A stretch of 64,000 nt of DNA from Phycisphaerales bacterium Planc_01 (GTDB lineage: Bacteria; Planctomycetota; Phycisphaerae; Sedimentisphaerales; Anaerobacaceae): contig LVBB01000069.1 in assembly GCA_001603075.1 (NCBI GenBank), positions 1 to 64,000 of the forward strand, given 5' to 3'. The notes beneath the pieces are model-generated. The model did not search any database, was not told the DNA's origin, and saw only the letters and a list, made by a program, of their open reading frames with translations. Both the position numbers and the translations under genes were made by a program. Positions 56,094 through 61,380 of the stretch are shown here, one piece after another; positions within the stretch are counted from its first letter, which is position 1, and the number at the start of each line of letters is the position of its first letter.

Positions 56094-56771
56094 ATGAGCC
56101 TGGACCATTCCCACATCACGGTACGCAAGCATTCGTTCCTGTCCAGCGCGGCCTTCGGGCTCAGCGCCGTCGTCATCACGGTGGTGGTCAGTCTGACGGT
56201 GGTGTTGCTGTATGGCGTCCACCTGGCCGGCGAGAAGTCCGAGCGGGTCATCTCGCTGGCTCATGGCGTTATCCACGGCCTGCCGGAGTTCCGCCAGTCG
56301 CTGCCGCCGGCCCTGTCGGACATGCTGGACGACCGCCGCCAGCCGGATTACCGCCGCGAGTTGACCATCGACGCCCGGGTCGTCACCGCCCCCGGCTCGC
56401 ACGGGCGGACCCGGACGGCCATCGAGATCACCAACAACGGCTCCGAGGTCGTCTCGCTCCTGTCGCTGCGGGTGGTCCTGCTGGACGATAACGGCGGCCT
56501 GCTGACCGAATCGCAGGAATGGGCGGCCACCCCCTTCGCCGCCGACCATGACTGGCGGGGACCGATCCTGCCCGGCTCGCACCGGCGGTTCGTCTGCTCG
56601 GGCGGCCATCTGTACGACGTCGGCCCGCTGGACAACGTCCGGCCGGAGATCGAGATCACCGAGCTGCGGGTCTGGAACGGTCCGGAAACACAGCCGCACC
56701 TGCCCGGCGACGGGCCCGCCGAGCCGGCCTCCGCTTCCGCCCATGCCCTGCCGGCCGGCAACGGATCGTGA
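56094..56771 (+). CDS. Single-pass membrane protein of unknown function with an Ig-like outer domain
   Basis: 225 residues from the ATG at 56094, nine bases after AAGGAG. A single helix [20 protein letters not shown] follows a short cytoplasmic tail. The outside part has a beta-sandwich ([20 protein letters not shown], then [18 protein letters not shown]) and a proline/alanine-rich tail. It is divergent from the pseudopilin gene with 234 bp between them. No family was recognised. Confidence 0.62.
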
Positions 56772-56961
56772 AGACCCCAGCCGGCAGCCTGCCGCTACCG
56801 CGAAAGGTGCGATATTTCAGGAAGAATCTGTAGTCTTCGACTCATCTTCACCCCCGGTTCTGCCGATAGTGCAGAGCAGCGACCGAAATGTGCGCCGTCG
56901 CTCCAGGGCGCCCGCCCTGGAAACGGCGCCATCAGGTCTGCATCAGGAGAAGGGTGAAAAG

Positions 56962-57831
56962 ATGAGAAGACACACTGTATTCAGAGCCATTCGTATCGTA
57001 CTGGTCGTCCTGACGCTCGCATTCGTCGGCATCGGCGCATCGTGCATGAAGAAGGCGGCGACGGCCTCGCAGGAACCGCTCTACTCGTGCGTGGTGTTCG
57101 CGGACGGCGACGCCGGCGAGACCACGTTCGACGCCGCGTACGCCGACTACGCCCACTTGCTGGGACCGGCGACCCCGGAGGACATCCTGAGTCACCTCCA
57201 GCGGCGTCTCGGCTCCCTGGACCAGCTCAAACAGCACTACCATCGGACCTTCACCGAGGGATTGCCGGCCCTGGTCAAGGACGCCTTTACACCGGATTGG
57301 GATACGTGGGCCGAGTGGCAGGTCTTCGCCGAGAAGTTCGGTCCGGGCGACGAATTGTGGCAGTTCGCCCTGCCCGCATCGAGCGCAGGGGGCCAACGCA
57401 CTGTGCGTGGCTACGCGATCGTCCGCGACGGCAGCCTGCACGCGATGCTCCTGGACCGGACCGTGGTCTTCCATGCGAGCTGCGCCGACTACGCGCCGAT
57501 GCTCCAAGGGGTCGCCGACGAAGAACAGATCGTGGCGTGGAAACGGCAGCGATTCGACAGCCTCGAAGAACTGCGGCGGCACTACGGCGACCATTTCGGC
57601 CCGGATTCGACGCGGATTCTCCTGGAGGAAGAGTGCCGCCTCGATGAAAGCGGCAGTCCATCGACCAAGTGGGACCGCTGGCATGTCTTCGGGCGTCGGT
57701 ACCAGGCGGGCGATCAACTATGGTACTTCGAGTCGCCGGCTGCGACGTGGAACGGACCGTTCGGACGCTGCGGCTATCTCATCACGCGCGACGGCCGGAT
57801 CCACGCCATTCTCGTCGTCGCCATCAGTTGA
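56962..57831 (+). CDS. Exported protein of unknown function with an internal duplication
   Basis: 289 residues with a signal anchor (IRIVLVVLTLAFVGIGASC). Two repeats of about 120 residues are visible. SLDQLKQHYHRTF corresponds to SLEELRRHYGDHF, WAEWQVFAEKFGPGDELWQF to WDRWHVFGRRYQAGDQLWYF, and GYAIVRDGSLHAMLL to GYLITRDGRIHAILV. Each repeat ends in a beta-hairpin-like IxRDGxxHAxL. No family was recognised; the fold may be a symmetric dimer-like binding protein. Confidence 0.6.
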   Translation: MRRHTVFRAIRIVLVVLTLAFVGIGASCMKKAATASQEPLYSCVVFADGDAGETTFDAAYADYAHLLGPATPEDILSHLQRRLGSLDQLKQHYHRTFTEGLPALVKDAFTPDWDTWAEWQVFAEKFGPGDELWQFALPASSAGGQRTVRGYAIVRDGSLHAMLLDRTVVFHASCADYAPMLQGVADEEQIVAWKRQRFDSLEELRRHYGDHFGPDSTRILLEEECRLDESGSPSTKWDRWHVFGRRYQAGDQLWYFESPAATWNGPFGRCGYLITRDGRIHAILVVAIS

Positions 57832-58095
57832 ACAATCGATACAGAGCGGCGAGCCCTCACAGACGCACCGACCGGACGAACCGCCCGCCAGGAAAAGAAG
57901 GGGGATCTGCTTCAGCGTCGCCATCTTCGTGCCGATAGACGGAGCAGTTGAATCAGGCTTCGAAGGAGGGCCAGATGGTGGAGCGCCTCGGAGGGCATTC
58001 CCGAACATCCGCCGCCGACCGTGACGATGAGCGTCGCGCCGGCGGCTGTTCTATTGTCGCGGCGGACCGCTCGGATTTTTTTGCGAAAAAAGCAC
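57832..58095. other. Intergenic region with an A/T tract upstream of the tRNA promoter
   Basis: 264 bp without a supported gene. A T7 run and an A6 run separated by GCG (58076-58091) sit just upstream of the -35 box, in the place of an UP element for a stable-RNA promoter. Confidence 0.5.
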
Positions 58096-58124
58096 TTGTC
58101 AGGCCACGAGTGCGTAGGTATACT
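58096..58124 (+). promoter_or_regulatory. Strong sigma-70-type promoter of tRNA-Gly
   Basis: TTGTCA at 58096-58101 and TATACT at 58119-58124 with a 17-bp spacer. Transcription would start near 58131, eight bases before the mature tRNA. The A/T tract just upstream resembles an UP element. Confidence 0.75.
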
Positions 58125-58138
58125 CCAAGCGTTTTAAC

Positions 58139-58210
58139 GCGGGCGTAGCTCAGTGGTAGAGCGTCACGTTGCCAACGTGAATGTCGTGAGTTCAAGTCTC
58201 ATCGCCCGCT
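58139..58210 (+). tRNA. tRNA-Gly (anticodon GCC)
   Basis: The acceptor stem GCGGGCG pairs with CGCCCGC. The D-stem is GCTC/GAGC, the anticodon stem TCACG/CGTGA encloses loop TTGCCAA, and the T-stem is GTGAG/CTCAT. The anticodon is GCC. CCA is not encoded. It is transcribed in the same direction as tig. Confidence 0.97.
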
Positions 58211-58274
58211 TTTAGGGGGTTTCTCCCAGGGATGGGGCCCTTCAGACGTGTTTGGGCGTCGGGGAACCATATAG

Positions 58275-58406
58275 TATCGGCGAGTTACCGACTAACGGGT
58301 AGTTTGGCGTTGGTCGCCGATATGCTAAGCCTGGCTGCCTGCGGCGGCCGGGCCGGACATGGCGATCATCGGGCTAAGGGAGGTGTCCTCCCTGAGGCCT
58401 TTTTTG
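58275..58406 (+). promoter_or_regulatory. Structured leader between tRNA-Gly and tig, ending in a terminator-like hairpin
   Basis: A 9-bp perfect inverted repeat TATCGGCGA (58275-58283) and TCGCCGATA (58314-58322) encloses a smaller ACTA-ACGGG-TAGT hairpin. GGCTGCC-TGC-GGCGGCC follows. The last hairpin AGGGAGG-TGT-CCTCCCT (58377-58393) is followed by a T-run near 58400. It could terminate the tRNA transcript, attenuate tig, or be a small RNA. TATAGT at 58270 may be a -10 box but has no good -35. Confidence 0.55.
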
Positions 58407-58452
58407 TTTATAGGAATCAAGCAGAATTCACCGTCTGTCTGGGAGCACGAAG

Positions 58453-59982
58453 ATGGAGGAAGAAACGAAGGACTCGACCGCCTCAACGAACCAGGAGCAG
58501 GAGACGCCGCGAACCGCCAAGAACACCGTCACCGTCGAGGACGCCGGGCCCTGTAAGAAGAAAGTCAGCATCGAGATCCCTGAAGAGAGCATCAAGGAAG
58601 CCATCGACGAGCAGTACAAAGAGCTGGGGCGCGAGGCCGTCCTGCCGGGCTTCCGCAAGGGTCGGGCCCCCCGCCGTCTGCTGGAGAAGCGATTCGGCAA
58701 GGAGACCAACGAGCAGATCAAGCTCAAGCTCCTGGCCGAGGCCAGTGAAGCGGCGATCAAGGACAAGGAACTGGATATCCTCGGCGATCCGGACATCGAC
58801 TTCGAGAAGATCGAGCTTCCGACCGCCGGTCCGATGAAGTTCGAGTTCGAGGCGGAAGTGCGGCCCGAGTTCGAGCTGCCCAATCTCGAGAAGATCCCGG
58901 TCAAGCGGGAGAAGCTGACGGTCACCGACGAGCAGATCAGCCGCGAGATCGACCAACTGCGTCGCTGGTCCGGCGTCTGGGCGCCGCGGGAAGACGGCCA
59001 GGTCGAGGCCGACGACCAGATCATCGCCGATGTGCTGCTCCGGCCCGAGTTGAGCGAAGAGGAGAAGGCCAAGCAGGCCGAGGCCGCCGAGAAGGCCGAG
59101 AAAGGCGAGGAATCGGAGCAGAGCCCCGTGCTCGAAGCCGAGACCAAACTGGACAACACGGAGATCTACGTGCGGTCCCAGGGCTTCGTCGGCGCCGTTC
59201 CGGTCGAGAAACTCGATGAATGGCTCGGCGGCGCCAAGGTCGGCCAGACTCGAACGACCACCGTCGAGGTGCCCAAGACCTACTTCCGGGAAGAATATCG
59301 CGGGCGAAAAGTCGAGATCGAGGTGACGGTCAAGGAGATCAAGTATCTCAAGCCCGCCGAGATGAATGAACAATTCCTCGAGCGCTACGGCGTCGAGAGC
59401 GAGGCGGAACTTCGCGAGCGCGTTCAGGACAACCTGCAACAGCAGCAGGAATCCCGCATCCGCCAGGACATGAGCGAGCAGATCTACCAGTATCTGCTCG
59501 ACCACAGCAGTTTCGACCTTCCGCTGGACATCGTGGCCCGCCAGGCCGGCACGATCCTGCAGCGCCAGTACATCAACCTCCTCCAGCGGGGCTTGTCCCG
59601 CCAGCAGGTCGAAGAGCAGATGGAGCAGCTTCGCGCCGGCAGCGAGGAGCAGGCCAAGGAGCAGCTCAAGACCTTCTTCATCATGGACAAAGTGGCCGAT
59701 AAACTGGAGATCGAGGTCACCGAGGAGGAAATCAACGGACACATCGCCCAGATCGCCATCCAGCGGGGACAGCGGCCGGAAAAAATGAAGGAGCAGATGG
59801 AACGCGACGGCTCGCTGGCCCAGTTCCGCATGGACGTTCGCCAGAACAAATGTATAAACAAGCTGCTCGAAACAGCCGATATCACTGAACAAGAGGCTCA
59901 GGCAACCGAAGCCAAGCCCAAGAAGGCAAAGAAGACCGCCAAGAAATCGGCAGAGGATACGGCCGAAAAGGAAGACCAGTAG
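58453..59982 (+). CDS. tig: Trigger factor, ribosome-associated chaperone
   Basis: 509 residues. The ribosome-docking signature is VLPGFRKGRAPRRLLEKRFG near 73-92. A PPIase domain with an acidic, Lys/Glu-rich insert (SEEEKAKQAEAAEKAEKGEE) follows. The C-terminal helical arms (LLDHSSFDLPLDIVARQAGT, then IEVTEEEINGHIAQIAIQRG) are typical. The protein is longer than E. coli Tig (432 residues) because of the N-terminal acidic tail, the insert and a Lys-rich C-terminal tail (KPKKAKKTAKKS). GGGAG lies seven bases before the ATG. Next to clpP, as in many bacteria. Confidence 0.95.
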   Translation: MEEETKDSTASTNQEQETPRTAKNTVTVEDAGPCKKKVSIEIPEESIKEAIDEQYKELGREAVLPGFRKGRAPRRLLEKRFGKETNEQIKLKLLAEASEAAIKDKELDILGDPDIDFEKIELPTAGPMKFEFEAEVRPEFELPNLEKIPVKREKLTVTDEQISREIDQLRRWSGVWAPREDGQVEADDQIIADVLLRPELSEEEKAKQAEAAEKAEKGEESEQSPVLEAETKLDNTEIYVRSQGFVGAVPVEKLDEWLGGAKVGQTRTTTVEVPKTYFREEYRGRKVEIEVTVKEIKYLKPAEMNEQFLERYGVESEAELRERVQDNLQQQQESRIRQDMSEQIYQYLLDHSSFDLPLDIVARQAGTILQRQYINLLQRGLSRQQVEEQMEQLRAGSEEQAKEQLKTFFIMDKVADKLEIEVTEEEINGHIAQIAIQRGQRPEKMKEQMERDGSLAQFRMDVRQNKCINKLLETADITEQEAQATEAKPKKAKKTAKKSAEDTAEKEDQ

Positions 59983-59993
59983 AGGGATACCGC

Positions 59994-60701
59994 ATGTCCA
60001 TAGAGCACCCAGTGAGACCCTTCGCCAGCTATAACGACGCCTACAACCAGTATGGCGGCGGCCAATACCAGCGGTTTCGCCAGATGAGTCTGGACGACAT
60101 GCTGCTGGAGAACCGGATCGTGTTTCTGATCGGTGAGATCAACTACGCCCGGGCGGCCGAAGTCATCATGAAGATGCTGTATCTGGACAATCTCAAGCGC
60201 GGGCGGGAAATCAGCCTCTACATCAACTCGCCGGGCGGGACCGTCGACGACACGATGGCCATCTACGATACGATCCGTTTTGTGGGCTCGCCGGTGGCGA
60301 CCTACTGCATCGGCCGGGCTCAGTCGGGCGGCGCGCTGGTCCTGGCGGCCGGGACCAAGGGCAGCCGGTACGCCCTGCCCCACGCCAAGGTCATGCTTCA
60401 CCAACCCTGGGGCGGCGTCACGGGACAGGCCTCGGATATCAAGATCCAGGCCGAGGAGATCCTCAAGTCCAAGAAGGTCCTCGCCGAGATCTTCGCCAAG
60501 CACACAGGCCAACCCGTTGCGAAGATCATCGAAGAGACCGAGCGCGATCGCTATATGAGCGCGCAGGAGGCCAAGGACTACGGGCTGATCGACGAGGTGC
60601 TCCAGGAGGACGAGAAGAAGGATCAGCCGGCGACCACCGAGGACAAGGGCGCCAAGGACGAGCACAAGACAGACACGACATCGTCGGACGACAAGAGCTG
60701 A
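59994..60701 (+). CDS. clpP1: ClpP protease paralogue 1, Asp of the triad replaced by Glu
   Basis: 235 residues. The Clp core is present ([26 protein letters not shown]). Ser111 lies in GRAQSGGA where most ClpP have GQAASMGA, and His136 in MLHQPW. The position of the catalytic Asp in ERDTERDR reads EETERDR, so Glu181 replaces it. The C-terminus adds a charged tail of about 35 residues ([12 protein letters not shown]). It lies 11 bp after tig and 37 bp before clpP2. It may form mixed rings with ClpP2 and could be less active or regulatory. Confidence 0.9.
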
Positions 60702-60738
60702 CCGATCGCCGACTCTGACCAGCGAAGGAAAGATACAG

Positions 60739-61380
60739 ATGGCTGTGAATGAGCAATTGGTGCCTATCGTTATCGAGAAAACCGGTCGCGGGGAACGGGC
60801 GTACGACATCTTCAGCCGCCTCCTGAAGGATCGGATCATCTTTCTGGGCGGCCCGGTCAACGACGCCGTGGCCAACCTGATGATCGCGCAGATGCTGTTC
60901 CTGAGCAATGAGGACAGCAAGAGCGACATCCATTTCTACATCAATTCGCCCGGCGGGTCGATCACCGCCGGCCTGGCAATCTACGACACGATGCAGTTCC
61001 TTCGTTGCGACGTCGCGACCTACTGCGTCGGCCAGGCCGCCAGCATGGGCGCCGTGCTCCTGGCCGGCGGACATGCGGGAAAGCGGTTCCTGCTCAACAA
61101 CAACCGCGTCCTCCTGCATCAGCCCCACATCATGGGCGTCATGGAAGGGGCGGCCACCGACCTCGACATCGAAGCCCAGGAGATTCTTCGCCTGCGGAGC
61201 CGGCTGTACGACATCCTCGCCAAACACACCGGCCAGACGCCCGAGAAGATCGAGAAGGACTGCGACCGGAACCTCTGGCTCGGCGCCGAGGAATCCATCG
61301 AGTATGGACTGGCCGACCGGATCCTTCAGAAGGCACCGGAGATTGTCAAAGACCGTGAGAAGGACGACGACGAAAAGTAG
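60739..61380 (+). CDS. clpP2: ClpP protease paralogue 2, canonical catalytic subunit
   Basis: 213 residues. The triad is Ser102 (GQAASMGAV), His127 (LLHQPHI) and Asp174 (IEKDCDRN). The [18 protein letters not shown] block and the adaptor-facing N-terminal loop are normal. It is separated from clpP1 by 37 bp, and clpX is not within the window. This subunit is likely to carry the proteolytic activity of the complex. Confidence 0.93.

Follow-up and report, generated by a model that had tools for sequence, protein, structure and literature searches.

Riboswitches and attenuators that work through terminator/antiterminator platforms have a conserved core in the 5' leader, an intrinsic terminator downstream of it, platforms that vary by lineage, and a core strand that can base-pair with part of the terminator region. 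Riboswitches for metabolites usually control several operons each. The autogenous leaders of ribosomal proteins (L20, S15, L10) are lineage-restricted structured RNAs that each belong to one operon near the translation machinery, and a single-copy leader that accompanies one gene across a whole class is closer to these than to metabolite riboswitches. T-box leaders involve a tRNA and attenuate transcription by a terminator, and in small RNAs of the 3'ETS-leuZ type an RNA lies between the 3' end of a tRNA and an intrinsic terminator; 3' external spacers of tRNA transcripts can act in trans. Here we describe a structured RNA located before tig, the gene of trigger factor, which is the first chaperone that newly made proteins meet. 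It lies in a 64,000-nt stretch of contig LVBB01000069.1 of Phycisphaerales bacterium Planc_01 (hereafter the window).

The tig leader shares the core, terminator and platform features of riboswitches and attenuators, and in sister orders the complementary strands as well, but differs in having no Rfam match and only one target gene, and its exclusive pairing is seen in sister families. It resembles the autogenous leaders in its restricted lineage and its single operon near the translation machinery, although tig is not a ribosomal protein gene. As in T-box leaders a tRNA is involved and a terminator is present, but this tRNA is encoded in cis, is not sensed as far as one can read from the sequence, and no T-box sequence accompanies it. 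Like RNAs of the 3'ETS-leuZ type it follows a tRNA and is itself followed by an intrinsic terminator, but it has a conserved fold and keeps its link to tig even where the tRNA is missing. The literature searched describes no such RNA and names no structured leader RNA for trigger factor. We consider, with a probability of roughly two in three, that the core RNA is a class-wide cis-regulatory leader of the tig operon, which switches between the core with its terminator and an alternative pairing of two strands called b and D. It is probably a new, previously undescribed family of structured leader RNA, of the attenuator or orphan-riboswitch type.

At or above the gathering score, Rfam 15 gave the tRNA as the only significant match in positions 56500-60500 of the window and in eight relatives. 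The bacterial small SRP RNA (4.5S, RF00169) was rejected as an identity because the SRP RNA of this genome lies elsewhere, on contig C58. A T-box leader, or a T-box-like sensing of tRNA-Gly, was also rejected: the Rfam scans of the window and relatives gave no T-box match, tRNA-Gly is dispensable, and the GGC of the core that could face the anticodon GCC is not invariant (GAC in leaders L069 and L071).

The features of the locus are collected in Table 1. The transcript of tRNA, leader and tig probably starts at the TTGTCA-N17-TATACT site, and a consensus scan found no + strand promoter site between tRNA-Gly and tig. The sequence-only reading of this DNA had proposed a perfect 9-bp closing stem, inner hairpins, and a terminator-like hairpin with a T-run about 50 nt before tig, and each of them could be located. 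The closing stem, P1, joins TATCGGCGA (58275-58283) to TCGCCGATA (58314-58322) and encloses P2 (58288-58294/58300-58307); a further hairpin occupies 58329-58353, and the terminator hairpin at 58371-58400 runs into T6, 47 nt 5' of the tig ATG at 58453. The conserved unit begins at 58269 (AUAUAG...), some bases 5' of position 58275, where that reading had begun it. This stretch of the window folds at -67.9 kcal/mol against -50.6 kcal/mol for 200 dinucleotide shuffles (z -4.75), none of which was as stable. In the minimum-energy fold of the single sequence, 58312-58318 pairs with 58361-58367 and displaces P1. Comparative data show that P1, and not this rival, is the evolutionarily maintained pairing; the pairing of the P1 3' strand with the downstream strand has a family median p of 0.68 and a strand-swap p of 0.88, and we keep it as a putative local alternative only.

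Table 1. Features of the tRNA-Gly, leader and tig region of the window, with the evidence for each.
Feature	Positions	Strand	Evidence
Promoter-like site TTGTCA-N17-TATACT, 5' of tRNA-Gly	58096..58124	+	Sigma-70-like consensus scan, 10/12 matches
tRNA-Gly, anticodon GCC, conserved neighbour in the order	58139..58210	+	ARAGORN, Rfam RF00005
Spacer with family-specific 5' element UCCCANGGAUGGG ... hairpin ... GGGAACC	58211..58268	+	Alignment of tRNA-core spacers
Conserved core RNA, 59 nt	58269..58327	+	Covariance model match, 78 bits; block identity across genera
P1 5' strand UAUCGGCGA	58275..58283	+	Compensatory changes at 8/9 P1 pairs (A1), 9/9 (A2)
Internal loop, 5' side G-K-U-A, conserved	58284..58287	+	G and A invariant in class alignment
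P2 5' strand	58288..58294	+	Compensatory changes at 6/7 pairs (A2)
P2 3' strand, one bulged base (58305); strand b begins here	58300..58307	+	A1 and A2 covariation
Internal loop, 3' side CGUUGG, conserved; remainder of strand b	58308..58313	+	Near-invariant columns
P1 3' strand UCGCCGAUA	58314..58322	+	A1 and A2 covariation
P3 hairpin, sequence not conserved	58329..58353	+	Single-sequence fold
GGCGAUC, can pair with GGUCGCC 58312-58318, rival of P1	58361..58367	+	Minimum-energy fold
Intrinsic terminator GGGCU-A-AGGGAGG / CCUCCCU-GA-GGCCU, then U6GU3	58371..58409	+	Fold z -3.2
tig (trigger factor), ORF of 509 aa, presumed controlled gene	58453..59982	+	ORF; homologues 3' of core in relatives
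Two clpP-like genes, presumed on the tig transcript	59994..61380 (ORFs 59994-60701, 60739-61380)	+	ORFs; named by eye from sequence

Comparison with relatives by blastn reveals a 56-nt block (58269-58324) with 78-93% identity to sequences from further genera of the family and from one other family; the sequence flanking it is not conserved. The core is built of two helices, P1 and P2, and a conserved internal loop; the hairpin and the intrinsic terminator come after it. Two alignments were scored over the nine pairs of P1 and the seven of P2, one at the order level with 52 distinct cores (A1) and one class-wide with 29 cores (A2). In A1, 95.2% of the cells pair and 11 of the 16 pairs show two-sided compensatory changes (57 two-sided cells vs 14.4 in shuffles and at most 13 in slid-strand controls), and in A2 such changes occur at 15 of the 16 pairs (90 cells vs 30.0 in shuffles), so that the covariation and the conserved stem on which the sequence-only reading had staked its candidate are strongly present. 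Class-wide, the invariant parts are bases of the internal loop (G-K-U-A in its 5' side, CGnnGG in its 3' side) and a C-G pair in P2. Since the helices are compensated and the loop is invariant, we read this pattern as a receptor core with free helices.

The distribution of the core points to the same gene throughout. Iterative profile searches combined with ARAGORN recover the arrangement tRNA-Gly, core, (terminator) and tig across the order, where the covariance model R1 finds the core in 120 of 161 genomes, in one place each. Models R1 and R2 extend to other orders of this planctomycete class, and the core is present in 133 of 397 class genomes, practically once per genome. A search for conserved structure upstream of tig had been suggested, and for 82 of the 84 distinct leaders the tig alignment indeed begins within 700 nt 3' of the core; covarying secondary structure thus coincides with a constant position 5' of tig across lineages, as in a cis-regulatory leader. 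The two exceptions are L123, which has no tig match in the stretch read, and L134 of family f19, where tig is about 1.45 kb away behind another gene and the leader may act on another gene before tig. The start of the gene that separates core and terminator from tig in L134 resembles, by eye, a class I fructose-bisphosphate aldolase. A GTDB-wide scan for the exact pattern, covering 84,980 species, gave six places, all in Planctomycetota records and all 5' of tig. Matches outside the class were not accepted as real cores, being weak, without tig and high in G+C, which looks like chance; second core copies were rejected too, as the weak extra matches inspected sit in long open frames or lack tig. 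A diverged core that the fast search had scored negative is present 5' of tig in L217, L219 and L230 and, by eye, in L226. The core has been lost in L221, L225 and L228, where tRNA-Gly is followed directly by tig without an evident terminator (by eye). The terminator is missing from L133 and L136, whose core stops about 15 nt short of the tig start, beside the ribosome-binding site, and thus the output in these two may be translational.

On the preferred reading, that of a cis-regulatory leader, the transcript in this order would start 5' of tRNA-Gly, and maturation of the tRNA 3' end would make the leader the first part of the tig mRNA. The core, with its helices P1 and P2 and the conserved internal loop, would be the receptor for a ligand or protein, a role suggested by its conservation and by the compensatory changes in its helices. 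With the core held in its fold, strand b (the 3' side of P2 and the CGUUGG loop) would be locked away, the terminator would form and tig-clpP would be turned off; with the core released, strand b would be free to pair with the downstream strand D and the terminator would be prevented. We infer this switching, its direction and its trigger. Because one gene is guarded, once per genome, our guess is that autogenous control by a protein is the likeliest trigger, exerted by trigger factor or by a partner at the ribosome exit site or in the Clp system, and the first candidates to consider would be trigger factor, the Clp proteins and the exit-site ribosomal proteins. That trigger factor, or such a partner at the ribosome exit or in the Clp system, controls its own operon through a new class of RNA, a leader that owes its 5' end to tRNA processing and takes both its promoter and a variable cap (Gly, Arg or none) from a tRNA gene, is a tentative proposal, and we would not be surprised to see it fail. 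A class-wide, single-gene RNA before tig, proven by covariation, is an orphan regulator, and a direct search for its ligand is now feasible. If the proposal is true, a tRNA gene heads a chaperone mRNA and so links tRNA transcription, ribosome-associated folding and Clp proteolysis.

The trigger could also be a metabolite instead of a protein, which would make the leader an orphan class of small-molecule riboswitch for tig within the same general reading. The compact core with invariant loop bases, the expression platforms that differ by lineage (terminator or translation-proximal) and the b:D switch strand would all suit such an RNA. However, it occurs in more than 130 genomes, once per genome and only before tig, and trigger factor is neither a metabolic enzyme nor a transporter, so we regard a metabolite trigger as unlikely.

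The relation to the tRNA gene is close in some lineages and absent in others. tRNA-Gly(GCC) stands 5' of the core in nearly every genome of the order, and also in families f9 and f18, with a tRNA-core spacer of 3 to 136 nt (at most 25 nt in 24 of 71); in several genomes of the order the core begins 3-10 nt past the tRNA. A spacer of 25 nt or less is too short for a promoter, and the leader would thus be co-transcribed with the tRNA in those genomes. Of the coupling between tRNA-Gly and tig-clpP that the sequence-only reading had proposed, co-transcription is therefore likely in the order, but the core persists without tRNA-Gly: f11, f15, f22 and parts of f19 and f20 have none before the core, which is still 5' of tig, and in f11, f15, f22 and others no tRNA at all is near the core. 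In L182 of f20 (L182:545-693) tRNA-Arg(ACG) takes the place of tRNA-Gly, 8 nt 5' of the core. Families f20 and f22 have a promoter-like sequence directly before the core, e.g., TTGACC-N18-CATAAT in L217 (by eye). Since other lineages lack tRNA-Gly or have tRNA-Arg in its place, the element belongs to tig and not to the tRNA, and on these comparisons the constant partner of the core is tig.

These data also bear on the idea that the core is a tRNA-linked small RNA, namely the 3' trailer of the tRNA-Gly transcript with its own terminator, acting in trans, tig being merely a conserved neighbour. It would account for the tRNA-Gly(GCC) found before the core in the order, f9 and f18, for the terminator that follows the core in most cases and for the single copy. 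A trailer of this kind would always be linked to a tRNA, yet the core stays before tig in the families without tRNA-Gly and with tRNA-Arg in L182, and in L133 and L136 it lies directly against the tig ribosome-binding site with no terminator in between, which leaves this idea rather improbable. Among the options of attenuator, small RNA and tRNA coupling raised at the outset, an attenuator before tig is the best supported, and a free small RNA fits less well.

A second conserved element, UCCCANGGAUGGG, a variable hairpin and GGGAACC, lies between tRNA-Gly and the core in the window and in about 17 relatives (among them L003-L007, L012, L015, L016, L032, L034, L035, L050, L100, L101 and L107). 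It is confined to part of the window's family and may be a 5' domain of the leader RNA.

An intrinsic terminator is found between core and gene (fold z -3.2 in the window), and a U-run lies 3' of the core in 78 of 80 leaders. The strands of the putative switch are best seen in the sister families f9, f18 and f19, in which the loop or 3' arm of the terminator holds strand D (consensus CCAACGCCUGRC), complementary over 8-12 bp to strand b (RYCAGGCGUUGG), that is, to the P2 3' strand and the invariant loop. At p 0.05 or less, b matches D better than it does shuffled sequence in 8/8 leaders of f9, 8/8 of f18 and 2/2 of f19; a control strand reaches this level in 2/8, 2/8 and 0/2, respectively. Each leader's own b:D is better than those swapped between genomes (p 0.0005), a value inflated by relatedness; control strand a gives p 0.006 in these families. 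Changes in b are matched in D, as seen in L187 (ACCAGG/CCUGGU vs GCCAGG/CCUGGC) and in f9 (GGUCAGG/CCUGACC). Sequence comparison shows that the core folds as described, that it goes with tig and that b and D are complementary in the sister families; D fits what one would expect of an antiterminator that is exclusive with the core.

An energy model run up to the end of D gives, for the core vs b:D, -47.7 vs -48.4 in L183, -32.8 vs -35.0 in L126 and -30.6 vs -35.5 in L125. As D emerges the two are near-equal or b:D is favoured in L183, L181, L125, L126 and L134, and in L184, L123, L176 and L180, with the terminator still unfinished, the core has an advantage of 1.5 to 5 kcal/mol; once the terminator is complete, core plus terminator wins in nearly all leaders modelled. 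Such modelled energies are compatible with a kinetic off-switch in which a held core lets the terminator form and turns tig off.

In the window's own family the antiterminator appears degenerate. D is reduced to CYGAYGCC at the terminator 3' arm (GAGGCC in the window, with one mismatch), the b:D pairing is weak (p 0.05 or less in 5 of 29 leaders, and 0.45 in the window itself), strand swaps within the family give no b:D coevolution, and the energy model of the window retains the terminator whether or not the core is formed. For the window, the alignments and fold show the receptor core, the link to tig and the terminator, and we infer its switch from the sister families. Of the 29 leaders of the family, 24 have GGC[UC]RR, a copy of the P2 5' strand, in the 5' arm of the terminator (6.6 expected), and one could hypothesize that an alternative antiterminator forms when this copy pairs with the 3' strand of P2.

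The terminator stem at 58371-58400, like that of other leaders of the family, has a conserved internal loop UAA/(U)GAY that resembles the UAA/GAN motif; the family pattern is GGC-UAA-GGGA / UCCC-U-GAY-GCC, which several members break. The loop would be unexplained if the stem were a mere terminator.

In family f4, core and terminator are present with no visible exclusive pairing, and their coexistence there, and weakly in f1, would suit an RNA that acts by processive antitermination or by binding the polymerase (like HK022 put or EAR), so that the polymerase passes the terminator without any exclusive base pairing. We think this very unlikely, as the sister orders do show exclusive pairing and L133 and L136 have no terminator that the polymerase would need to pass.

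A DNA element, either promoter or repressor operator, has next to no chance of being the explanation: AUAUAGU at the 5' edge of the core does resemble a -10 box and P1 is an inverted repeat, but compensatory changes at 15/16 positions, P2 included, keep the pairing and not the sequence, P2 loops grow by long inverted repeats (L038, L039), and transcription starting after such a -10 box would cut P1, which compensates as RNA and would span the start site; AUAUAGU was accordingly rejected as a promoter in its main function.

The apical loop of P2 is enlarged by long inverted repeats at L039:615-768, L056:about 418-570 and L038:721-822. In L039 the repeat is CCCCGCACCTATTTTGAG...CTCAAAATAGGTGCGGGG, and L056 has a related palindrome. 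These repeats look as if a palindromic mobile element had inserted at the sole site that the RNA tolerates.
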